This document shows positions 40,704 through 56,963 of a DNA stretch of 64,000 nucleotides, piece after piece. Location of the stretch: assembly GCA_021397835.1 (NCBI GenBank), contig JAJFZO010000882.1, positions 1,488,001-1,552,000 of the forward strand. Reading direction: 5' to 3'. This DNA comes from Moringa oleifera (Eukaryota > Streptophyta > Magnoliopsida > Brassicales > Moringaceae). Each line of letters opens with the position of its first letter. Within the stretch, counting starts at the first letter, position 1. The notes below the pieces were generated by a model. The model searched no databases. It was not told the origin of the DNA and saw only the letters and a list, made by a program, of their open reading frames with translations. The position numbers and the translations under genes are program-made.

Positions 40704-43537
40704 TTACAACATTTCTTGTGATTTTCTTACACAGCGACTCACTTTCCTCTTGAACTCGTCCCTCTTCTCCCTCCACTCTTTTGCGGCTTCAACATTTGCA
40801 GGAGATTCATCATTTGGGCTGGAAAGCATTGATATTATACTCAGTACAATGCTCTCAACCTGCATATTAGGTAACAGCATAAAATGATATTGAGTGGTAA
40901 AAGGCAAACATGCATATTGAGTGGTAGGATACAATACAAGGTACACAGGGGAAAACATCTAAACTTTACAGGATTCACCTTCCTCGTCCCTTACTCAAAT
41001 TGTCTTTTCGCAAGTAGGCACAAATTTTTTCAGCTCTTCCGCTATTCTTTTCTATTCAGAGCTTACACAACTCTTTTTTTTACCTGACAATAAACCTTCT
41101 CATGCATCTATCTGTTGTCTCTCCAACTCTTTTTATTGTTTTTTCACCAAAGTTTTATGTTACCCATGGACTCAAAAGACTCTGGACAGCATCTGCCCAT
41201 GTTTCTTGGTTACTGATAGAGATCACTGACAACTCACTTCCTTTATTTTTGATCAATAATGTTAGCAATGTCGATTGACACCGCCCCCAAACCATACTTG
41301 GATGTTTCAGCTAAATTCAAATAGCAATCAACCAAGCACAAAGTTTAACAATGATTCTAGGTCATCAACCACCTAAGAAAACTCTAATGCGACCTACTCC
41401 ATGGCTGGGACACATTTACCTCATCCCAATCAGCAAGGAGCAGTTCACCATGACATGGGGATGGGCACTTTTTTCCCCTTACTTGAAAGATGTTCTAATG
41501 GTAAAGAAATGGAAATGACTGAAATAAAACTAACAAAGATGAAGCTGATCATCGAGATAGCACAACTATCTTGCATAAATATTATAATGTAAAGTATGTG
41601 CAACTGACTTGCATGCATCCAACGGGCCAATGAAATTGTATAATACAATGTCAACCTCCCACCCTAACCAACTCAAGCAATCTCTGCAAAACTAGAGTTG
41701 TGCTAGGGTTTAGAATAACACCTCAATTTGAGCAAGGCTGGGCCCGTCGGAGCAAGTCTAGACAATTTAGTCTTGTACCGATCCCCAGTTCCTGCCATTA
41801 TAGTTGCCCACCACCATGATGCTGCCAATCAGAACCTCCATCAGATGGCAAAGCCGCATACTGTAATAATATGAATGTAAACATATTACAATATGTATGT
41901 TAATCTTTTCAGCATTAATCCTTTATCCCTCAGACATGCCCAAGTCACAATTGTAAATGACTATCTCCTTGGACAACACCTCATTACATGCCTTTCAACA
42001 GTTCGAAGTTACACACCGGAATCAGAAGAGAGTAAAAGTATTATACTGTACAAATAATGTTAATGGTAGATGACTAGCGAACAATACCACTGCAGCTAAG
42101 AGACGCAAGTTTACGGTAGAAACAAAAATAAGTCAACTTATCACTAGCTATTTGATATCAATGTCAACAAGTAAATCAAGTGAAAGCATCAAACCAAGGA
42201 AATATCACCACTATATTTCATGAAAAAATGGAATAAATTTTCCATAACACATAAAGCATGAGAAAAGGATCATAAGCATTGAACACAATACCGTATGGAC
42301 TGGACTCCAGCGCTCAGAAGCAAGCTCATAGCCACTTGGGTCATCACCAGGAGGATGAAGAATTGATATGCAAACCCTTCCATCAGAGTAAACTACAGTT
42401 CACACAACAATTGCAAGATATTTGTTCAATTCACCAAAGAAAGAAAAAATATATATACATATATATAGGATAAGTAATCACCATTCGGATGCCACATCTC
42501 TGAGGTAAACCTCACAGTTGGAGGACTGACTGGATAATTCTCTGGAAAGGTCATGATTGCACTGAAGAAGCCCCCTTCACTGCAAGGATAGAATTATGAA
42601 TGAATACAATTTCCAGAAAGAATTCAATGAAAAACCAAAATTAAGGGTAAGCACTACAATTAGCATAAATCATTATACACAAATGACATAATCTATTGAT
42701 CTTATGGGACAAGATATTGGTGATGGATCAAAGCTTATAATACTATTCAAAAACACAAAACAATCTCAATGATCAAAACTAACGAAATATTGATTGTCGA
42801 GCAAATAGTCAATAGTTAAACCTTGGAAAAAGTTAAACCAAAGACATAAAAGAATGAACAAACAAACAACTTCACAAGAAGCAATTAAACCAAAAAATAA
42901 AACTTTAAACATGATTAGCTATAACTGAAGACCTAAGCAGACAGAAAGATCGCAATGAACAAAACTAATCAAATAAATCAAACTAAAAAATCAGGGGCAT
43001 GTCATCAATAACCAATTCAAAACTTCATATTCAGCTGACCATAAAACAGAAACACATATCAGTCATCAAGTCCTTACCCCAAAAGAAGAAATAAATAAAC
43101 CAAAGATCAAACAATCATGATCTAAAACCTGAACTTTAAAGCTTGAAAACACAAATAAGAAGGCAATTAGTCAAGACACAAACTGACTCAATATATTCTG
43201 TTTTTTCAATAAAATCCAAAGCTTAAGCAAAAAATTACAGAATTTGATCACTTACTAGAGAGTATCAGGGGGTCCCATAATGGATACACTCCATTCAAAA
43301 ACGTTGTTCTCGTTTACCAACCCCGCAGAGAAGCCATCCACCGGCTTCTTGCAAAGATCTGTACGCAACCAATCAATTCATCAGTCAAATCAATAGTTCA
43401 TCAAAGTTCCAAAATCAAAACAACAAAAACAAAACCCTAGGAGAATTTGAATAACTGAAACAGAGATTAAAGACTGACTCCAGGAGATCACCTCTAAGTT
43501 GCTTCTGAAGAAGGAGGCTTGCTTGAGTTGTCGCCAT
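40704..43537 (-). CDS. UBC7: Ubiquitin-conjugating enzyme E2 (UBC7/13/14 type)
   Basis: E2 of the Ubc7/UBE2G class, which carries ubiquitin for ER-associated degradation and related E3s. Five exons: 43492-43537, 43256-43358, 42482-42579, 42292-42392 and 40704-40859, joining to 167 residues (Arabidopsis UBC7 about 166). Features seen: start [29 protein letters not shown] before the HPN motif (80-82), active-site Cys at about 90 in VCISILHPP, and the class-specific acidic insertion [11 protein letters not shown] right after it. The C-terminus is [11 protein letters not shown]. The fourth intron (40860-42291) is long, about 1.4 kb, and shows no nested gene. UBC7, 13 and 14 cannot be separated here. 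Confidence 0.96.
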
Positions 43538-43599: not shown

Positions 43600-46280
43600 A
43601 TTACAATAATTCATAACGAAGAATACGCCATTCGTGCTTTTATAGACAGCCACCACTCTCTCCTTCATATGCTTTTTCTCTCTCTTTTTTTTTAATTAAA
43701 AAAAGCATTTTGTCTTTTTCATTTTTTAATGAGGCCACGTAGGATTCAACAAAAGAGGAAAATAAGAAGAGAGAGAGAACTTTAATATTTTCCTTTTTAA
43801 AAATTTTGTATTTCCTTTTTGAATTTATTTATTAAACTTTCAGATAGAAACTAAAAAGGTTTAGGTAGTTTGGCGGTTTATTGGTTGTCCTTTTTTTTTA
43901 ATTTAGTAAATAATTTCTGTTAAATTTTCATAATTTAGGTTTTCTTTCTATGAAGAATTCATTGTTTTTGTCAATTGTTTTAGAGCAAATATATGAAAAT
44001 TTTTAAATTACATTTATTTTTAATTTAAATTTTGATATATCAATTAAATTAATTATATATTTAAAATTTTAGTTAATATAATTCAGATCATTGAATTAAA
44101 TTATCAAAAAAAATAATTTAAATAAATTTTATGATTAATTTCAATTTTTTCTTCGAATTTTAATGATTCTCAACTTACAATCTTATTTTTATGAACTTTA
44201 AAATTTTAATATAAATTATAAAATACTTTTAGTTTCCAAAAATTTTAAAATTTTTAATCGTAAATTAATTTTTTTAATTTATTAAAAATTTTAAATCAAA
44301 ATTTACTGTATGAGATTCAATATTTTAACTTTTAAATTTATAAATAGAATCTAAAATGAATCAAATTAAAATATCAAAACATAATTAATGTATAACTGAA
44401 AACTTCTTTATATTTACGCTAAATCATAATATTATATACATCTTTTGATATTTATAATTTTTAAAATAATTTAATTTTATCATATATTATATTAATATAA
44501 AAATTAAATAAATTTGGTCTTACAACAAATTTTAAAAATTTAACACAAATTTTGACTTATGTTTTTTATATATACAAGTAAATATTAAAACTATCATTGC
44601 AAAAAATATATATATTAAAATATATATTTTTAAAAATTTATATAGATAATTTTAAAAATTAAATTTATTAAAAAATAGATAATAAATTAAAAATTATTCA
44701 AATTTAAGATATGAAATTAGAGATTAATTTATTTGAGTTATTTTTGAAGTTTTTTAACAATAAAGGTATCTTTGATTTTTTATACATATTTGAGTTAAAA
44801 TTTAATTTAAATCAAACTTGTAGCTTAGAGTTTGATTTTTTATATTTTAAATATGAAAATTTGATTGATAATATCAATTAAATAATTTTTATATAATTTT
44901 TATTTTTAAATTTTATCATTGTTTAATTTTATAATTTTTAATAATAAACTTATTTTTAAATAAAACCTACTTGTTTATTATTGTTTCTCTCACTCTTCCC
45001 CGTTGAATTTTTGTGTCCTTTATATATAGAGAGAGGAGGATCTTAAATGTGTACCACCTAAAGAGCAAAGTTAAGAAAAGGAAAAGCTATGCCAATGCTT
45101 TGAGGATTGGATTTATGGACTTTTTTTTTTTTTTTTTGCATGAGATAAAGATTCTCAATAAGAAATTGAGCACTTTAATTGATGGGTCCAATTCACAAAC
45201 GTCTTTTTATCTTTTATTTTTTAAAAAAATAGGAACCCATTTGAAATCTAGGGTTCATCTTTATTCCTTGTATAGATTCACTTGGATTTGCCAATTTCAC
45301 ATGGGTATAGGACTCTTCTAATTAGTAGAATTAATTCCCCTTTATGGTATTGGTTTATGAGAGGGGAAAACCAACTGGTAATTGAGATTTGAATTTGAAT
45401 CTTCTTATGGTCAAATGGGGGAATTCTTGAAGTGTGTTTTATGAGTGGGAAATGGTCTAATTTGTGGATTCTAATGATACCCAAATGGGTTAAACTTTAC
45501 TTGAAGAACATCATCATCATAATGATTTTTGCTTGAAGCTACTTCTAGCTTGCGGGTGAAGATTTGTCATTGGATTTGCATTGATTAGGATCAAGGAAAA
45601 GAATAAATAATATGTAAGCAATGGGTAAGAATTATAACTATTTTTTTTAACACTTGTAGAAAATTCATAAGAGAAAATGATTGTTTATTTAATAAATTAT
45701 TTATAAAATTTTAAGATATCCAAATCAAAAGATTATTATGTTGACCCAAGAGATTTCTTTTATTTATGAATCACATATTTTTGGAATGTATATCTAATTT
45801 AAGATTTATTTTGAAAATTTATCACAAGACACTAATATTTTAAATTAAGATTAAATTATATTTTTAATTTAAATTGTATTAAAAAATTTAAAAATTATAA
45901 AATTAATTATTAAAATTATTACATTTTTTTATATTAAAATTTTAAATTTTGTTATAAAAATAACTCAGCATAATGAAACTCTCTTGAAATTACGTAAATT
46001 TAATTAGATAAGCAAAGTCGGTTACTTATTTATGGGTGATTAACAAAAATATCAAGACATGAAATTTTTGGATCATCTCAATTTATATAAAGTTGACAGG
46101 ATGCTAAATTTACAAGCTTCCAACCAAAGCAAGAGATAGCAAAATAGTAAAATACCACATTGAATGGTTTATAACACTATGTGCCATTAAGCAAATAGAA
46201 CAATTTCAATGGACAAAAGCAATGGCAATAGGGAATTTTCTGTGAATTTTTGACTTTCTTGTATTTTGTACTGTACCCAC
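43600..46280. other. E2 promoter, then AT-rich intergenic DNA
   Basis: About 43540-43740 is the E2 leader and promoter side with CT-rich runs. The part at 43990-44360 resembles the dispersed AT-rich repeat. The frame 45013-45321 contains poly-F from a T-run and has no family resemblance. No RNA gene was recognised. Confidence 0.4.
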
Positions 46281-46289
46281 TCAAATTGA

Positions 46290-46560
46290 GGGAAAATGGT
46301 CGGAAAATCTTCCATTTTGTTGGGTAATTGTACATTGAAATTGGGATTCAATTGAGGTGTAATGACCCAAAAGAAAAGAAAATGAAGGAAAATGGTGTCA
46401 GAATTTTTCCTTTTTGTTGGCTAAATTTAGATTGAAATTAGGATTCAACAGAGGTGCGATGACCCAAGAGAAAAGAAAGCGAAGGAAGATGACGTGATGA
46501 TTTTCCTTTTTGCTGGGTAATTTTAGTCTGAAATTGGGATTCAACAGAGTTGAAAACCCG
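46290..46560. repeat. ~97-bp tandem repeat
   Basis: Units begin at 46315, 46412 and 46508 (spacings 97 and 96). Each starts TTTTGYTGG, passes through a TGAAATTRGGATTCAA segment and, in the first two units, reaches GACCCAARAGAAAAGAAA. The third is cut short, and a partial unit precedes the first. It lies about 200 bp from tRNA-Pro. No coding potential. Confidence 0.8.
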
Positions 46561-46750
46561 GAGAAAATAAATGGATTTTACTGTTAACTGAATGGGCCCA
46601 GGAATTGGGCTAAGGCCGACAAAATTAAAAGTGAAAATGTCCGTGAAGAGAATGGGCCTACTCTATAGGGCTATGAGCCAATTACTGTGATGAATGGCCT
46701 TCAGGGGCCCACAAATTGGAGAGGTTAAAATTGACAAAAACTGATAACAT

Positions 46751-46822
46751 GGGGCATTCCGAGAATTGAACTCGGGACCTCTCGCACCCTAAGCGAGAAT
46801 CATACCACTAGACCAAATGCCC
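46751..46822 (-). tRNA. tRNA-Pro (AGG)
   Basis: A minus-strand cloverleaf. Acceptor GGGCATT pairs AATGCCC with discriminator C. The anticodon stem CTCGC/GCGAG frames loop TTAGGGT with anticodon AGG. The D arm has TGGTCTAGTGGTA (box A) and the T arm GAGTTCAATTCTC (box B). No intron. A T-run follows on the minus strand near 46735-46740. Cytosolic type. Confidence 0.96.
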
Positions 46823-47009
46823 TTTTGTTTAAACGGTTCCTAATTTATTTTAATTTTTTCATTGTTATATAGACCCCTTAAGTGACCTCCACATTTTCTT
46901 GTAACTTAATTTATTATAAAATTATACCCTAAAAAGGTAAAAATAAATCATGAGATAAAAGAATGACGCTTACTAAAAATGTTACAAGAAAAATATGAAT
47001 TTTTTTTAA

Positions 47010-47470
47010 TTATATCCATATTTAATTTAAGCCTTGATGTATTAATTAGATCAATTGTATATCTAATCTTTCAATTTAATTTAATTTGAACTTTGTTTTA
47101 AATAATTTTAAAATAAAATAAAAATCATTTTATTGTTAAAATACTTAAAAAATAATTCAAGTAAATTGAAGATATTTATTTATTAAATTTAAATAATTTT
47201 TAACTAATGAATTTTTTTTTACAAAAAATTTTAATTTTTTGTAGCGTAAATGTTTAATAATGTATTTTTAATATTCAAAAAATTAATAAATTTTTTATAA
47301 TAACAGTTTGGATATTTATTTACATCTCCAAAATAATTTTAAATTAAAATTCATTGTATAATACTTTTCAATTTGAATCTCTTAAATTTTTTAATTTTAA
47401 ACAAAATGTAAATTAAATTAAATTAAATATATAAAATTATAATTATATAAAAAATATATATAATTTAAAG
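47010..47470. repeat. Dispersed AT-rich repeat copy
   Basis: Clear similarity to 59330-59770. Both contain 'ttttttataatRacaRtttgRatattt' followed by 'tttacatctc', and a downstream start of 'aaattaaattaaat'. About 450 bp, non-coding. Terminal repeats are uncertain. Confidence 0.5.
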
Positions 47471-47479
47471 TTTTTTTAA

Positions 47480-48700
47480 TAAATATTTGATTTTATATTT
47501 TATCAAAAGTTTGTCTGGTAAAGGAACATAGTTATTAAAGTAACCATAAAATGATGTCTAGTTTACAAAATCTTGAATAATTCTCAATAATAAATTAAAA
47601 TCAAAACTGTAGATTTCCCCACAAGAAAATAACAAATTAAGAATTTTTAAAGACAAATTAAGATTTGGTAAGCGGCTAATATTATGCAGATTAGAACAGA
47701 ATGATATCTTTAAATGGTAAAATTAGGGACAAAAGAGAGAGCAGCAAGAGGAAGTGGCTTCTAAAAATCCTTATAAATTTTATTTTTTTTTAATTTTATA
47801 TAAATAAATTATAATATTTTTTAAAAAAAAAATTTCACCATCATAATTTAAAAAAATAATAATAATGGCTGGATCACAAGCAGAACAGGAAGTCCAAAGT
47901 GGACAAACAGAATGTAAAGTGATCATAAGAGGCTAATAAATCCAACCAAAGATACATTAATTGATCTTATCAATGTCAGTTTTTTTTGTCTGATTACAAA
48001 GTCAATGAAAAGCACATGCATGCAGCATCATTGCCTCTCAATCATGTCTTCTCTTCTCTCATTCATGACCATTTTTACAGGCTCTAAATGCCTCTTCCAC
48101 ACCGCTCTAAAGTTAATTAAAGCTCACAAATCATCTCTTTGTCTAAATTTATGCTGAATTTTTTTATTAAATTAAAATATGTTATATTTTTTTAAAAAAT
48201 TAATATAAAATTATAATTTCAATTAAAATATTAAAACATAAAATATTACAAGAAAAATATCATTTTTACTAATCACTATAGAAGTCAGTCAGAGTCAGCA
48301 AGTAAATCTTATCGTGCTAATACATAATTATGATCATTTTGACGAATTCCATCACATGATTCGGGCAAACCCTAAGATCTTATTCCGACAAAGCTATTTT
48401 GACAAAACTTTAGGGTTGGCCGGTAGAACGACAAATATGTAGAGTTAATGTCTTAATGACAATTAACTGGCTCGGTTTAATTAATTATGCCATGATCAAA
48501 CCCAACAGTTAAATTAATCTCTTGAATATGGGCATGACATAGGATTCCCAGACAGATAAGACTGTGAAAGCTGAGTACTTTTCTTTTCAAGTTCAAAGAA
48601 ACCATGATTAACCCAATAAATTATGTCATTATAAAAGGTTAACCAGTTTCTCTTCAAGAACCCTAAATCATGAACAGGATCACGTACTGATCATCATCTC
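47480..48700. other. Intergenic DNA upstream of the CLE gene
   Basis: AT-rich spacer. From about 48290 the composition is more balanced and probably contains the CLE promoter and leader. No TATA box could be chosen with confidence. Confidence 0.4.
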
Positions 48701-48701
48701 C

Positions 48702-49397
48702 ATGCACAGCAAGGTTATGGTAGTGATGAAGAGAAAGCAGCAGACCATCGCTCTAGCCTGCGTCTTCTTCTTCTTCTTCGCGATCTTCTTCCTGGTAGCT
48801 TCTCTCCGTTGGTACGCCATGGCAGAAGGAGTTGAAGAGAGAAAATCTTGTAATCTTTCTCTTTGATGTGAGTGAAATAATTAGCAAGTAATGCTAATCT
48901 TCTTCTCTTCTGATCGACGCTGTTGTTTTCACAGGTGATGTCAAGCTCGACCATGGAGGACTGCCCAGATCAAGATCAACATCCAGAACCCTGTTAGCTA
49001 ATTGGCTTGCTCAGGTAATCAACAATATGTTCTTCTATTTTCTGACCTTACAATTAATATACACAATAATACTAATTAAGAGTATATAATTTTTTATTGA
49101 TAATTTCAGCCATCGAGTTTAATATTTATATTGACTGTTCTTTATAAAACATCATTTTTATCCACGATAGCTAATATAACAGGCATTTAAAGTATACTAT
49201 TTTTTAATTTTAATTTTAATTTCTTAATATCAGTGTTAAGAAAATAATAATAAAATAAATGACTTAATTAAATTGATTTTAATTTGTTTTTGATGAAAAA
49301 TAAAAAGAAGAAATATGGGAGGCAGGAGAAGCTGAACGTTCGTAAGGTACCATCAGGACCAAATCCCATTGGGAACAAGCATCCACCAAAGCCATGA
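48702..49397 (+). CDS. CLE peptide hormone precursor (CLE46-like, TDIF-like core)
   Basis: Secreted signalling peptide precursor of the CLAVATA3/ESR family, perceived by leucine-rich-repeat receptor kinases. Three exons: 48702-48849, 48935-49014 and 49326-49397. Phases match at each GT-AG border and give 99 residues. The N-terminus has basic residues (10-14) followed by a hydrophobic stretch (about 16-35, with five consecutive Phe), fitting a signal peptide or anchor. A basic variable region with GGLPRSRSTSRT follows. The CLE dodecapeptide is RKVPSGPNPIGN (82-93), with the tail KHPPKP. Gly6 and Pro4/7/9 of the motif are present. Exon 3 could instead begin earlier (near 49308), adding up to six residues in the same frame. 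Three-exon structure is known for CLV3 and CLE40. CLE46 orthology is suggested by the neighbouring UXS and E2 genes, from memory of the Arabidopsis map. Confidence 0.82.
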
Positions 49398-49629
49398 AGG
49401 AAAGAGGTCAACCTTGCCAAAGAGACTGGCCCCCGTGAATGTTAATTTTGATGAGAATACTGAAGTTAATCAAATTATTATTATTATTTTAGAAATATGT
49501 TGTCTCTTTAAATTTCCATATGATATAAATATACATTTTTCTTTTCAGTTCATATTGAATTTGTGAATTTTTACTGGTTTCAATTATGTTAATTTTTTTA
49601 AAAAAATTATAATAAATATTAATTTAATA

Positions 49630-50066
49630 AAATTAATAATTAATATTATTTATTTATTTAGTTTATATTATCATTTAAAAATATAAATATATCTTCTAAA
49701 TTATATATTAAAAACTCAAATTTGTAAAAAAATTATACGTGGTAAAATTTATTAATTTTTAATTAATTTTGAAGATATTGTTCTTTGTTGTAAATTAGAG
49801 TATTAACTAAATAATTTTCAATGGATTTGATTAATTTGGGTATTAATTTAATAAATTAATAATTTATTTATTTATTATTATAAATTATAAAATATATATC
49901 TAAAATTTCATATTAAAAAACTTTGCACAAGCTCAAACCAGAAAAAAAATTATACGCAATAAAATTTGTTAATTTTTAATTAATTTTGAAGATATTGCTC
50001 TATGCTGCAAATTAGAGTATTAAGCAATTTATTTTCGGTGGACTTGATTAATTTGGGTATATGCTT
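49630..50066. repeat. Direct tandem duplication, period ~217 bp
   Basis: Two adjacent copies. For example AATTATACG occurs at 49731 and 49948, each followed by the same TTAATTTTTAATTAATTTTG and 'gaagatattg' sequence and ending near 'ttgattaatttgggta'. AT-rich and non-coding, downstream of the CLE gene. The rest of 49400-51240 is AT-rich with nothing recognised. Confidence 0.8.
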
Positions 50067-51270
50067 TCATATATCGTGAAATATATTTTCTAATTTGGCA
50101 GGATAAGAATTAGTAGTTATAATTATCGTGAAATATATTTAATATTTAATACTTTTTAGTTAAAAAATGTTAATTATAATATAGTATTTTGTCTATGAGG
50201 TATTATAAAATTTAAAAATTAGAAAATTTTAACTTTAAATCAATTTGTTCTTATTTAATTTGCACAATTTGGAGAATTTTTAAGTTATGTGAAAAATCAA
50301 TATTTGATCAAAGTCATTGGCAACTTAATTAATTTTTATGACATTAAAGAAATTAATGTGATTTTTCAACAATGTAAAATCTATAAAGTTGTTTATATAT
50401 CTTTAATTTATTTTTAATAATATAATAAATAAAAAATTTAAATTAATTTTTAAAAATTAAATAATACATTCAATTTTTAATTTGGTTTAAATTAAATATT
50501 AATAAAAAATTAAAAATATTTTTGTTGTGAAAATATTCAATGATTGAAGTAATTTTCCACTAAAAAATGTACATATATATATATATTCAAGATTTTAACA
50601 ATGTAAATTTTTTTAAAATATACATTTTTCATATTATTTTTATGATTATTTAAATATTTTTTATATTTGTAAATTTAAATTTATCCTATATTATTTTAAT
50701 TTAAATAATCTTTTTAAAATATTAATTGATGACATCACGATATAAGTTAAATCAAATTAAAATATTACATATAATTAATTTAACTAATTTTTTAAATATA
50801 AAATAAAAATAGGTATAATTTTAATTTTTTTTATATCTAATTGAATAATAATAAAAATAATTTATCTTTTCTATTTTGCTCTATATCCACCAAATAGAGA
50901 GTGAATTGCAATGTTTGTATGATAATATCACCAATTACATGGACAAAGCGTTGCAATTTGTTTTTATAAACTGTTTTCCTTTATTTTCATTTCATTTTTA
51001 TATATTTAATTTTCCCAAAATTGAATCAAACAAATATACTCTCTCTATAATAAATAATTTATATAAATATAAATAAGAAAAAAATACAGAAAAGGATAAC
51101 AATAAATCACCCTAAGACACATCACGAAAAATTAAATAAAATAAGAGTGAATTAACACCAAAATCTAAATTTTATAATAAAAATTAAATGCATTAATAGG
51201 TATTTATAATTGTTGTTTTATTTAATTATACAAAGGAAAATTTATTCTTTGGTTGGTAACTGAAGCTAAG

Positions 51271-51406
51271 GAACTTCTGGAACCAACCAGAAACTGGAAA
51301 TTAGAAACTTCCCTCACGCTCGCAAAAATGGGAAGGCAACATCCCACGATGTCTTATGAACAATTGAATCCAACGGCTCAGATTCAATCACATGAACCTT
51401 CTGGAA
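51271..51406 (+). promoter_or_regulatory. Heat-shock element cluster of the HSC70 gene
   Basis: A three-unit match GAAnnTTCnnGAA at 51394-51406 (GAACCTTCTGGAA), a two-unit GAAACTTC at 51304-51311 and a TTCTGGAA at 51275-51282. These are binding sites for heat-shock factors. They lie 140-275 bp upstream of the HSC70 start codon, so heat induction of this gene is likely. Confidence 0.75.
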
Positions 51407-51545
51407 CCAAAGGGAGGAGGGAAGCTAGATAAATGCCCCTCCACTTTCTTTCACTCTGCGTATCCGTGAGGAAGAGGAAAGAGGAAGTTCTTTGAGAGTT
51501 TTAGTCTGTGGATTTGTTGTGTGAATAGGAAAGCAAGTGGCATCA

Positions 51546-53997
51546 ATGGCAGGCAAGGGAGAGGGGCCCGCAATCGGGATCGATCTCGGGACGACGTACT
51601 CATGCGTCGGAGTGTGGCAGCATGACCGCGTCGAGATCATAGCCAACGACCAGGGAAATCGAACGACGCCATCTTATGTTGCATTCACAGATACTGAGCG
51701 ATTGATTGGTGACGCTGCCAAGAACCAGGTCGCCATGAACCCGATTAACACAGTTTTCGGTGAGCATTTGATGATCTCATGAAAGCTGTTAGCTCTTTGC
51801 TGTTTGGATCGTGTTTTATGAGGGTATTCTGTATGCGTTTTAGCTCCGTGCTTTTACATGTTTACATTTTCGTTGTAGTGATTAAGAGTTTTGCATTTTG
51901 AATTTCGTGGTGACTTGACCATTGGCGGAGGAAAAAGAGAAAGGAAAAAGATGTGACGTTTGTTGGGTTATGTGATTTGAGTTTTATAGATCGTGACAAC
52001 GTTACAATGATGAGGAAATTCTGATTATGTTTTGATTGATTGTTGTTTGACATGACGCCAAAATATGAAGTTGGTCTGAAATGATGAATGCATGTAGAAT
52101 CTTGCAACGGATGTGCCAACTTTTGCATGTAGAGAAAATGTATTTATTAAGTCTCTACTAGTGGTTCTGATGAGGACGCATTCTATATGCATAATTGTAT
52201 TAAAATTTTTTTTTTATGGGTATTCGGTTTCTAGTATTGATTTTGTATCTGTGAACTGTGACAGATGCTAAGCGCTTGATTGGTAGGAGATTCAGTGACC
52301 AATCTGTTCAGAGCGACATCAAGCTCTGGCCATTCAAGGTCATTGCCGGGCCTGGTGACAAACCCATGATTGTGGTCACCTACAAGGGCGAGGAAAAGCA
52401 GTTCGCTGCTGAGGAGATCTCATCTATGGTCCTTACCAAGATGCGTGAGATTGCTGAGGCTTACCTTGGCACAGCTGTGAGGAATGCAGTTGTCACTGTA
52501 CCAGCCTACTTCAATGACTCTCAGCGTCAGGCTACAAAAGATGCTGGGGTTATTGCAGGCCTCAATGTTATGCGTATCATTAATGAGCCCACTGCTGCAG
52601 CAATTGCTTATGGTCTTGACAAGAAGGCCACCAGTGTCGGTGAGAAGAATGTGTTGATTTTTGATTTGGGTGGCGGTACCTTTGATGTCTCCTTGCTTAC
52701 CATTGAAGAGGGTATCTTTGAAGTTAAGGCAACTGCAGGGGACACCCACCTGGGAGGTGAGGATTTCGACAACAGAATGGTTAACCATTTTGTTCAGGAG
52801 TTTAAGAGAAAGAATAAGAAGGATATTAGTGGGAACCCAAGAGCTCTTAGGAGGTTGAGAACTGCTTGTGAGAGGGCAAAGAGAACTCTGTCATCTACTG
52901 CCCAAACTACAATAGAGATTGATTCTTTGTATGAGGGTATTGATTTCTATTCAACAATTACTCGTGCAAGATTTGAGGAGCTCAACATGGATCTCTTCAG
53001 GAAGTGTATGGAGCCGGTTGAGAAGTGTTTGAGAGACGCTAAGATGGACAAGAGCAGTGTACATGATGTTGTCCTAGTAGGTGGTTCAACTAGAATTCCG
53101 AAGGTGCAGCAGCTATTGCAGGATTTCTTCAATGGGAAAGAGCTCTGTAAGAGCATTAACCCTGATGAGGCTGTTGCCTATGGTGCTGCTGTTCAAGCTG
53201 CTATTTTGAGTGGAGAGGGTAATGAAAAGGTGAAGGATCTACTGCTGCTGGATGTTACCCCATTGTCACTTGGGTTAGAAACTGCTGGTGGTGTGATGAC
53301 TGTTTTGATTCCCAGGAATACTACCATTCCCACCAAGAAGGAGCAGGTGTTCTCGACCTATTCAGACAACCAGCCTGGTGTCTTGATCCAGGTTTATGAA
53401 GGTGAGAGAGCTAGGAGTCGAGACAACAACCTCTTGGGAAAATTCGAGCTTTCTGGCATTCCTCCTGCACCAAGGGGAGTTCCTCAGATCAATGTCTGCT
53501 TTGACATTGATGCCAACGGTATCTTGAATGTGTCAGCTGAGGATAAGACCACAGGCCAGAAGAACAAAATTACCATCACCAATGACAAGGGAAGATTATC
53601 AAAGGAAGAGATTGAGAAGATGGTCCAGGAGGCTGAGAAGTATAAGGCTGAGGATGAGGAACACAAGAAGAAGGTTGAGGCAAAGAATGCTTTGGAGAAC
53701 GTTGCCTACAGCATGAGGAACACAGTGAGGGATGAAAAAATTGGTTCAAAACTTGCCCCAGCTGAGAAGAAGAAAATTGAGGATGCAATTGATCAGGCCA
53801 TTCAGTGGTTGGACAGTAACCAACTTGCAGAGGCAGATGAATTTGAGGACAAGCTGAGGGAGCTCGAGGGTATTTGCAATCCCATAATAGCCAAGATCTA
53901 CCAGGGTGCTGGTCCTGATAAGGGTGCTAGCATGGATGATGATGCTCCCCCAGCTGGTGCCAATAGTGCCGGTCCCAAAATTGAAGAAGTTGATTAA
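51546..53997 (+). CDS. HSC70: Cytosolic heat shock cognate 70 kDa protein
   Basis: ATP-driven chaperone of cytosol and nucleus. Two exons: 51546-51759 and 52265-53997, joined at TTC-G|AT within VFDAKRL, the usual intron place in plant HSP70 genes. The product has 648 residues (Arabidopsis HSC70-1: 651). The nucleotide-binding domain has [10 protein letters not shown] (about 10-19), [14 protein letters not shown] and [13 protein letters not shown]. The substrate-binding domain follows from about 395, and the C-terminal tail is short, Gly/Ala-poor, ending EEVD, the TPR co-chaperone tag that marks the cytosolic form. The true start is the ATG at 51546 ([13 protein letters not shown]); an in-frame GTG lies nine bases upstream. 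The gene is convergent with the ACD gene at 55479. Confidence 0.98.
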
Positions 53998-55478
53998 GTT
54001 AGTGTTAAATGATTGAGTATTATGAGTGTTTTTGTACTGACAGATTCAGTATGGTATAGGGGAAGAAGCATCTGTTAATAGTTTTCAGCTTTCAGCTCTG
54101 GTGACATCTTTCTGGTAGTATCTTAAGGAGCTTCTTGAAGTTCTTACTTTAGTTCCATTGCTTTCTTAAACGAGGCTACTCTATTCTGGTTGATAAATCC
54201 ATTAGAGTGAATAGGAAGGACCCAACTAGTGCATCCGAGCATCACTTTCTCTTTTTGGTTTTCTGCCTGGTTCTGGTTTAACATGTTTTCATTTGTTCTT
54301 ATGCGGGATTTAAGAATAGATTTAAATATCATACAGCAGTAGCTGGCATCCATGCCTATTTTGATTTGGATGACTCTTGAAGAATTGCATAAAATAGTTT
54401 TCTCAAGTCCTGTTGTGGGTATCTAAGCAATCTATCAAGCTTAAGCAAAGACCTCAGGGCGGTTCGCAACTACCATGGACAGTGCATATGCAGAATCAAG
54501 ATTCAAGCAATCAAGTGCCAACAGCTATGCTGCATATTTACATAGCAAGTCCCCCAAAAAAGCACAAAGAAATTACTTAAGTGAATGTGCAAGTAAATGC
54601 AGGGTTAACCATACAGATGATTACAGATTTACAGCAGAGGATTCTAGATGCAAGCATCATGGATGCTAGAAGATAAAAATGCTTTAAACTTGGTAGATAA
54701 TAAATTATACAGAGAAATTGCTCCAGATCCTGAAAGAACAGGCAATGAAAGAAAGTAATTGAATGAATTTGTTAGGCCTTTGACACTGTTTTCTAGAGAA
54801 TAAAGGCAGTGGCATGTATAACCAGAAGTGACATGATTCATGCCAGGAGCAATAATGCATCTGCTATTCATAATACTGCCATTCAGGACAAAAGTGGCAT
54901 CTTGTGACATATCATTCAGTAAATTAACAACCAGGTGAAGATCCTGGATTGCAGGTAAAGTTGTCTGAAGAAGATTGTCAGAGCACTGGTAAGATAACTT
55001 GGTAACTTTGTGGTGATGAAGGCTAAATGGCAGGTCCTTCAAACAAAATAACCATAATATGGTACAAAATATGGCCAAAGAAAAGACAGAAGAAATAATT
55101 TATCATACCACTGTGAACAACAAAGCAAGCAGAACCCCACAAAGAATGCAGAAAATTTTTTGCTTTAAATTTCAAAATTAAAGTAAGTTCCAGGAACATT
55201 CCTGAAGAACATGGCATTAAATCATCAGAGCTATAATCAAATAGACAAGGACAATAAAAGAGCAACCACTATAATCATCAACACTTTCAGTTGTTGATGT
55301 GACCTTAACTAAAAAGGTTATAACAGATATAAATTCAGGACTGAATCTTAGCGAAAAAAATGCATATTTCATTCATAGGTTTCTTTATGGAATGAGGTTA
55401 GTAAACAATAAAGCACCAACCGCTTAAACCATTCTCGCATTTCTCACCCTAATGTCCCTTCCAGGTTAACAAGCTCAT
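53998..55478. other. Convergent 3' regions; unexplained frame 54644-55078 (-)
   Basis: The first few hundred bases are HSC70 3' untranslated sequence. On the minus strand, downstream of the ACD gene, an uninterrupted frame of 144 codons (54644-55078) begins MAIFCTILWLFCLKDL. I recognise no family. An acceptor-like TTGTTTGAAG sits near its start at about 55040, so this may be an alternative 3' exon or untranslated sequence of the ACD gene. I do not call it a gene. Confidence 0.35.
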
Positions 55479-56963
55479 TCACTCCATGGTGAAAGGACGA
55501 AGGCATACACGGACCTCATGTTCTTCTGGTCCTACACGATGTTTGGGCACAATAATCTCAAGCATCGTTCCTGTCTCGTCCCGGTATGCTTCTAGCTTAG
55601 CATCTTCTGGAATGCGATTCGGAAGGGGGATCTCTCTAATGAATTCCCCTGGTGGGCAGTGCTCTGGTGTTGGATCTGTTAGCTTAAAAGTCCTATCATG
55701 TCTCTTAATGAATGGCTTCCGAGCTGTACTCAGGCAAGATATCTTTACAATCCCATGTGAGGGTGTATTCCTCCAAGTAACTTTCACCTTTTCAAGATCT
55801 GCAAAAGGCAAGCTGACAATAATCAAGAATCCCTGGTCATCTTCATATATTGTTTTTGCTGCGGTAACAGGCCCATATACATTCTTCATCACCCCACTAA
55901 ACTCATTCAACCATGGCAGCTCAACTGGGTGCAGTTTCATATCCAAGCCTCTGTCAGAATGTGAATTATTAGAACACGAATCATCACTGTTTCCATGTGG
56001 AAAATAGTCCTTCTTGCGTTTGTTGCAGATAGGTGAGATATCCATCCCATCACAGTTGGTAAAATCTGATGGCTGAGTTGACAAATTCAAAGTAGTGCCA
56101 TTGAGCAACTTCTTTGGGTGGGGATTCAGATTACTCTTCAGTGGAGGAAGGGGCCGCTCAAGCTCAAATTCCGTATTTGGAAGGTTCCTCCATGAAGAAA
56201 AATCACTTGCTTCAGGAGGGACAGAGAAGTTTACATCCCTGCCTGTAAGCTCCGTCCACCTCTTCTTTTCTTCCTCATCAAGATTCATGAGGTTTGGAGA
56301 GCGAACAATTTCAATCCCATGAACACACTGTGGGTTAGAAAGACCACGGTAATGCTTTCTCTGCATTCTGTGAGATCGGACAAAACCCTTGTCCACACTG
56401 AATGGAAATGGGCGTTCTCCCTGGCGAGAATGACCATTCATGTAACTCCTGAGCTGCATCTTTCCCAATGCATTTTCAGGTTTTTCCTTGAAAACCCACA
56501 TATACATGTTCTCCATATCATGTTGAACCAAGAAAGCATCAAGCTGCAGGTCTGACTTGTCATACCCAGACAAGCCATTGCTGTCCCTAATTATCTTACA
56601 CTTGGACTTCTCATTCAGAACAGGCTTGAAATAGAAACTAAAAAAGAACCAAGCACCCCACACACTATCCAGACGCTTATTGCATTTCTTTGCAACTTTT
56701 GGGACATTAACAATGGCCTCAACTTCGTAAGTTTGAGGTGCAAGGCCAACATCTAAGACCTCACAAGGGTCATTCCATGTTAATGGAGGTGGGCTAGCCT
56801 CAGATGATAAGGGGAGATTGATATCAGGAGGCCTTGAAAGGATAACTGAACGATTCATCTCCCTCTCCAATTCATCATGCGTAAAAGAGCCTGAATCCAT
56901 TGACAACAGTGTGGAAGGGTGATAATTCTCCATTGATAAGGCTGTGAGGAGTGCTTCGCCCAT
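55479..56963 (-). CDS. Alpha-crystallin-domain protein, IDM2/IDM3-like
   Basis: One uninterrupted coding exon of 494 residues. The C-terminal about 125 residues (from about 368) form an alpha-crystallin/HSP20-like domain: DDQGFLIIVSLPFADLEKVKVTW, then GIVKISCLS, HDRTFKLTDPTPEHCPPGEFIREIPLP and the closing strand TGTMLEIIVPK. The long N-terminal part is not part of small heat-shock proteins. It includes SVWGAWFFFSFYFKPVLNEK (about 100-120), and a basic stretch with HRMQRKHYRGLSNP and NKRKKDYF that could be a nuclear signal. In Arabidopsis, IDM2 and IDM3 are ACD proteins of this kind that act in active DNA demethylation. Membership of that group is inferred, not shown. The start MGEALLTAL is preceded by spliced leader sequence. 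Confidence 0.75.
   Translation of the reverse strand: MGEALLTALSMENYHPSTLLSMDSGSFTHDELEREMNRSVILSRPPDINLPLSSEASPPPLTWNDPCEVLDVGLAPQTYEVEAIVNVPKVAKKCNKRLDSVWGAWFFFSFYFKPVLNEKSKCKIIRDSNGLSGYDKSDLQLDAFLVQHDMENMYMWVFKEKPENALGKMQLRSYMNGHSRQGERPFPFSVDKGFVRSHRMQRKHYRGLSNPQCVHGIEIVRSPNLMNLDEEEKKRWTELTGRDVNFSVPPEASDFSSWRNLPNTEFELERPLPPLKSNLNPHPKKLLNGTTLNLSTQPSDFTNCDGMDISPICNKRKKDYFPHGNSDDSCSNNSHSDRGLDMKLHPVELPWLNEFSGVMKNVYGPVTAAKTIYEDDQGFLIIVSLPFADLEKVKVTWRNTPSHGIVKISCLSTARKPFIKRHDRTFKLTDPTPEHCPPGEFIREIPLPNRIPEDAKLEAYRDETGTMLEIIVPKHRVGPEEHEVRVCLRPFTME

Follow-up and report, generated by a model that had tools for sequence, protein, structure and literature searches.

Does a stretch of the Moringa oleifera genome in which no long reading frame stands out encode a peptide hormone precursor, and to which CLE type would that precursor belong? 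The window analyzed here is a 64,000-nucleotide stretch of DNA (G000:C565:1488001-1552000) from an assembly of 279.5 Mb in 669 contigs; unless a contig is named, positions refer to the window. A sequence-only reading had placed a three-exon CLE gene at 48702-49397. We consider it highly probable, from comparison with related sequences, that this locus is a protein-coding gene of the CLE46 type (B-type) and a predicted secreted-peptide precursor. The family itself is already known, and the gene is one of two CLE46-type genes found in this genome.

Gene model and precursor

Joining the three GT-AG exons on the plus strand produced a spliced coding sequence of 300 nt, specifying 99 amino acids and a stop, with the translated precursor MHSKVMVVMKRKQQTIALACVFFFFFAIFFLVASLRWYAMAEGVEERKSC-DVKLDHGGLPRSRSTSRTLLANWLAQ-EKLNVRKVPSGPNPIGNKHPPKP. 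All junctions lie where the sequence-only reading had put them, and the exons join in phase to give the 99-residue product it had described. Exon 1 (48702-48849, 148 nt), read from the translation with its junction taken from the family profile, encodes a basic KRK, the hydrophobic core TIALACVFFFFFAIFFLVA and then AMA, and ends in phase 1; signal peptidase could cleave after residue 41, following AMA, as judged by eye. Intron 1 (48850-48934, GT-AG, phase 1) is followed by exon 2 (48935-49014, 80 nt; translation and family profile), which encodes the variable linker DVKLDHGGLPRSRSTSRTLLANWLAQ and ends in phase 0. Intron 2 (49015-49325, GT-AG, phase 0) has a 3' end uncertain by a few codons. 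Exon 3 (49326-49397, 72 nt) comprises 24 codons counting the stop, the short exon to which the CLE motif had been assigned, and encodes EKLNV, the CLE dodecapeptide, and a KHPPKP tail.

The precursor displays the features expected of the CLE family. The dodecapeptide RKVPSGPNPIGN (49341-49376; DNA pattern and translation) ends six residues from the C-terminus, and the small precursor of 99 residues carries an N-terminal signal-like hydrophobic segment at residues 15-33. This segment is strongly hydrophobic, with a mean hydropathy of 2.82 over 19 residues, bearing out the signal-like N-terminus proposed earlier; the corresponding peak in the paralogue on contig C518, described below, is lower (0.97, 19-residue window). 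The SGPNPxGN end and the xxPP tail, which are CLE46-type (B-type) features, are both present. In an alignment of nine sequences including the window gene, S G P N P, G N, and P P are invariant, and the core SGPNP-x-GN is common to the window gene and its eight aligned relatives. Position 1 of the motif is R in the window gene, H in seven of the eight other sequences and Q in the remaining one; H at this position is common in the CLE46 type without being invariant and was therefore not counted as defining. Judged from these sequences, the arginine is the one unusual feature and the main surprise of the gene. The first nine residues of the motif, RKVPxGPNP with S or T as the main choices at x, were turned into a degenerate DNA pattern; it matched once in the 279.5 Mb genome, and its reversed control did not match at all.

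No long frame marks the gene, as the sequence-only reading had also observed. The longest plus-strand frame touching the motif (49369-49566, 65 aa) is out of phase and overlaps the motif end only; the whole motif is covered by a 50-aa minus-strand frame, and the in-phase frame over it is 37 aa long and begins at TTG. It is plausible that automatic annotation could miss such a gene. The exons have a G+C content of 48-50%, compared with 35% and 20% in the two introns and 29% and 18% in the 1-kb flanks. Translation through a retained intron 2 gives a protein that terminates without the CLE motif. A TATA-like box at 48630-48635, 72 bases 5' of the ATG, is a possible core promoter by its match to TATAAA. 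Between this box and the CLE start, a short reading frame of six codons plus stop (48670-48690, plus strand) possibly lies in the 5' leader, and could dampen translation as an upstream open reading frame.

An open spliced chain is by itself weak evidence for a gene. Within 48400-49397, 669 open GT-AG models that include the motif were enumerated (two or three exons opening with an ATG, with a minimum of 60 bases per intron and 30 for exon 1, and a maximum of 250 for exon 2); the equality of this count with the number of contigs is a coincidence. Because so many open models contain the motif, openness is cheap, and independent evidence is therefore needed. When the models were ranked by a family profile from which the window gene had been left out, the one proposed earlier came fifth of the 669. 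The four models above it have the same intron 1 and the same second donor, and differ in the start ATG or in a shift of the second acceptor by one or two codons. Intron 1 and donor 2 are therefore well supported, while the exact position of acceptor 2 is less certain. Acceptor 2, before 49326, is preceded by the purine-rich stretch ATATGGGAGGCAG, and alternative in-phase AGs end at 49307, 49310, 49328, and 49331, changing the sequence before the motif by +6, +5, -1, and -2 residues, respectively. Donor 1 reads CTT/GTAATC and lacks the exon-side G that the donor consensus normally has. By sequence, donor 1 and acceptor 2 appear to be weak splice sites.

A collinear paralogue and annotated relatives

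A second three-exon CLE46 gene was found on the minus strand of contig C518 (exons 1826284-1826185, 1825748-1825684, and 1825545-1825468), encoding 80 aa and ending in HKSSSGPNPVGN-HHPPSRQ. Its intron phases, 1 and 0, are identical to those of the window gene. The two genes also agree in the aligned position of intron 1, written S/C-DVKL in the window gene and S/V-HFKL in the C518 gene (slash, splice junction), and this position aligns with S/xx[VF]KL of the CLE46 family. The C518 block and a third block on contig C13 were located via copies of the HSP20-like neighbor, and 40 kb around each was examined. The C518 block is collinear with the window but inverted, with E2, HSP70, and HSP20-like genes in matching order and orientation; its CLE gene sits between E2 and HSP70, on the expected strand and at the expected position. 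In the interval between the C518 E2 and HSP70 genes, tblastn returned EGKKIHKSSSGPNPVGNHHPP at 32.3 bits. Position, motif, and structure, not this score, are the grounds for the paralogy, because an unrelated stretch on contig C2 scored higher (38.5 bits) than the C518 motif exon. Over the motif and the next four codons, 12 of 16 codons differ between the two genes, seven of the 12 synonymously; within SGPNPxGN, five of the six differing codons are synonymous, a pattern that selection on the peptide would leave, in a tiny sample.

The neighboring genes suggest for this pair an origin in an older duplication. In the window, an E2 ubiquitin-conjugating enzyme gene (E2 G1/UBC7-like) spans 40710-43377 on the minus strand, as the extent of the exons that match C518, and is collinear with C518. 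The HSP70 gene (51545-53998, plus strand), about 2 kb downstream of the CLE gene, is collinear with both C13 and C518. The HSP20-like (SLT1-like) gene (55479-56963, minus strand) is one of three copies found in the genome, the further near full-length copies lying at C13:5715280 and C518:1812672; it had no local Pfam match, yet its database relatives carry PF26144/PF26145. Its best relative is from papaya (90%, P0001), and papaya has at least two further copies at 75% and 74% (P0071, P0096) among the matches listed, 120 of 735. The three HSP20-like copies in both genomes, together with the poplar PtCLE34-type gene discussed below, fit an old core-eudicot duplication, presumably connected with the gamma triplication. 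Within the 40 kb examined on C13, neither tblastn nor the six-frame profile returned a convincing CLE match.

As a single sequence searched against about 5.8 billion proteins, plant proteins included, the 99-residue product returned two candidates and none at E <= 10. The two-gene alignment of the window and C518 products, by contrast, retrieved nine plant proteins with E values of 6.5e-19 to 5.9e-10. Five of the nine are named CLE-related protein 46 or 46-like (Durio, Camellia, Mercurialis, Rhododendron, and Quillaja), and the others are hypothetical proteins, three from Populus and one from Nyssa. Seven of the nine were used for the alignment and profile; the longer Populus entries P0128 and P0129 (Populus alba and P. 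tomentosa) were left out because each carries an insertion. Flanked by QAMEA and VHFKL, this insertion occupies the expected place of intron 1, which suggests that it may be a misannotated read-through of intron 1.

A family HMM was built from the seven annotated proteins and the C518 gene, with the window gene excluded. Against it, the window product reached 51.5 bits; two TDIF precursors scored 14.6 and 12.0, and two other CLEs from this genome -1.7 and 4.5. Residues 1-76 scored above every one of 2000 shuffles (16.6, with shuffles up to 12.2). So did residues 34-82, a segment reaching one residue into the motif, by a narrow margin (8.1, with shuffles up to 7.2), so that the precursor outside the motif also fits the CLE46 subfamily. 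Over its whole length, the protein is 25-34% identical to its relatives. A six-frame scan with a profile of the seven annotated proteins alone covered 4631 pieces from window positions 44001-52000 and the C518, C13, and C2 stretches. Ranks 1, 2, and 4 went to the three C518 exons. Of the window exons, exon 3 was independently recovered at rank 3 and exon 1 at rank 7; exon 2 was absent from the 14 best pieces listed. The three-exon CLE gene proposed from sequence is thus supported by its relatives: the collinear paralogue with the same phases, the annotated CLE46 proteins of other eudicots, and the profile choice among 669 alternatives.

The window product had no Pfam match, its 20-residue tail had no match in the PDB, Rfam found only three tRNAs in the window, and RKVPSGPNPIGN as a literal motif had no match in the literature text searched. 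The pattern GP[ND]PxGN matched the genome five times and, when reversed, four times, so that the number of matches by itself shows no enrichment. The window and C518 genes account for two of the five matches; nothing CLE-like surrounds the remaining three in their frames. A broader CLE-like DNA pattern gave 26 matches against five reversed controls, and about 14 of the 26 look like CLE genes when the frames are read. This pattern misses the C518 gene, which has no proline at position 4. Two loci about 20 kb apart on contig C49 (4550083 and 4570822) have open frames with several CLE-like motifs each, three in the first and two in the second (for example RGSLAGPDPIHH, PTGSDPIHH, and RKSPSGPNPLHH), as in multi-CLE precursors; they are probably a tandem duplicate.

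Two more weak matches came from the genome protein search, and neither was retained as a relative. The first (C2:3673558-3673764, E 9.6e-4), the best-scoring non-self stretch, has one in-frame TAG and a weak resemblance to exons 1-2. Against the annotated-family profile, its two pieces ranked 2466 and 625 among the six-frame pieces scored, with scores of -1.4 and 0.3. In the 20 kb examined, blastn found nothing matching the window, and none of the frames contained a G[PQST][NDSGK]P peptide; the resemblance is probably due to chance. The second (C518:1828275, E 1.8, three TGA codons) lies on the strand opposite to that of the real paralogue, which is nearby.

Known CLE systems and rival readings

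The window gene shares with CLE46 (AtCLE46, AT5G59305; PtCLE5, PtCLE26; and the CLE-related protein 46 proteins) the C-terminal SGPNP[IVT]GN and K at position 2, and with the aligned CLE46 proteins the xxPP tail. It differs in having R1 rather than H1 (Q1 in Mercurialis), in V3, and in a divergent signal peptide and linker. AtCLE46 is AT5G59305 (PMC8136906) and UBC7 is At5g59300 (PMC7355981), locus numbers which by themselves suggest that AtCLE46, like the window gene, has an E2 neighbor. AtCLE46, given as HKHPSGPNPTGN, serves in PMC7552357 as an example of a gene for which alternative splicing may produce both motif-containing and motif-lacking proteins, which resembles the outcome of intron 2 retention in the window gene. 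A poplar survey (PMC4776436) gives PtCLE5 as IHKSPSGPNPVGN and PtCLE26, called a putative AtCLE46 orthologue, as IHKSSSGPNPVGN, a 13-mer identical to that of the C518 gene. In the same survey, the motif of PtCLE34 (Potri.010G206700) is IHKAPSGPSPIGN; comparing motifs only, it ends in PIGN like the window motif but has H1, A3, and S8 instead of R1, V3, and N8. Since Potri.010G206600 is an HSP70 gene (PMC5324098), the locus numbers indicate that PtCLE34 probably adjoins HSP70, as the window gene does. PtCLE34 is likely to represent the orthologous lineage of the window gene.

CLV3 and CLE40 belong to a different CLE subfamily with another motif type. They resemble the window gene in having three exons, with two introns (PMC10436580), and a CLE motif near the C-terminus. 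Introns occur in 13 of 50 PtCLE genes, six of which have two (PMC4776436); in tomato, seven of 15 CLE genes have one or two, and SlCLE14 (HKPPSGPNPNGN) occupies 568 bp for 95 aa, a span which suggests intron sequence. Three-exon CLE genes are not unusual.

A chance open chain around a chance motif, with no gene behind it, would be in keeping with the 669 open GT-AG chains that contain the motif. It is barely conceivable given the collinear C518 paralogue with the same phases, the nine annotated plant relatives, and the profile rankings of models and exons. Assignment as a TDIF (CLE41/CLE44) gene acting via TDR/PXY in the cambium is also very improbable. TDIF is a B-type CLE, and nine of 12 residues of the window motif equal its motif HEVPSGPNPISN, the differences being H1R, E2K, and S11G at positions 1, 2, and 11. 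Against this assignment, the window motif combines the S11G change with an xxPP tail, the genome contains two separate HEVPSGPNPISN genes (L014 and L025), and the window precursor scores much higher on the CLE46 profile than the TDIF precursors do. In PMC5383425, moreover, the AtCLE46 peptide has no measurable TDR binding, and TDIF-H1R binds TDR 3.2-fold less.

The most serious rival, though still an unlikely one, is a decaying CLE46 duplicate in which the motif exon survives while weak splice sites and a divergent N-terminus leave little or no functional precursor. The weakness of donor 1 and acceptor 2, the low overall identity to relatives, the poor showing of exon 2 in the independent six-frame scan, and the absence of a convincing CLE match from the 40 kb examined on C13 are all consistent with decay. 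On the other side, all three exons are open in frame and the motif is intact, the core differences to the C518 paralogue are mostly synonymous, the N-terminus is strongly hydrophobic, and the family profile supports exons 1 and 2; a copy as old as this one is taken to be would, without constraint, probably no longer have an open frame. We prefer the reading of a CLE46-type gene that has an intact sequence and is very probably functional.

Predicted role and wider meaning

From established CLE knowledge, the precursor of this CLE46-type gene would enter the secretory pathway, be cleaved on both sides of RKVPSGPNPIGN, and lose the KHPPKP tail; its prolines would probably be hydroxylated and arabinosylated, and a leucine-rich-repeat receptor kinase would perceive the peptide extracellularly. 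A review (PMC12554668) describes a CLE46 reporter active in the shoot apex and wound-induced in leaves, states that CLE46 inhibits root regeneration, and lists its receptor as unknown. By analogy with AtCLE46, the most likely role of the peptide would be that of a shoot- or stem-derived signal restraining regeneration or differentiation, rather than that of a TDIF-like TDR ligand. A more speculative proposal, which we regard as rather doubtful, is that the gene is an old CLE46 duplicate whose receptor-anchoring N-terminus changed from H to R and which combines this with TDIF-like V3 and I10. Such a hybrid ligand might have exchanged the CLE46 receptor for one of the CLV1/BAM type that prefers R1, or might signal through both.

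Short exons make CLE genes difficult to annotate, and peptide families are therefore undercounted; in tomato, 37 new CLE genes were added to the 15 first listed. The present case supplies exact predicted junctions and a second CLE46 gene on C518. Since the review gives no known receptor for CLE46 (PMC12554668), a naturally occurring peptide that has R1 and resembles TDIF at positions 3 and 10 would be useful for asking which residues decide the choice of receptor.
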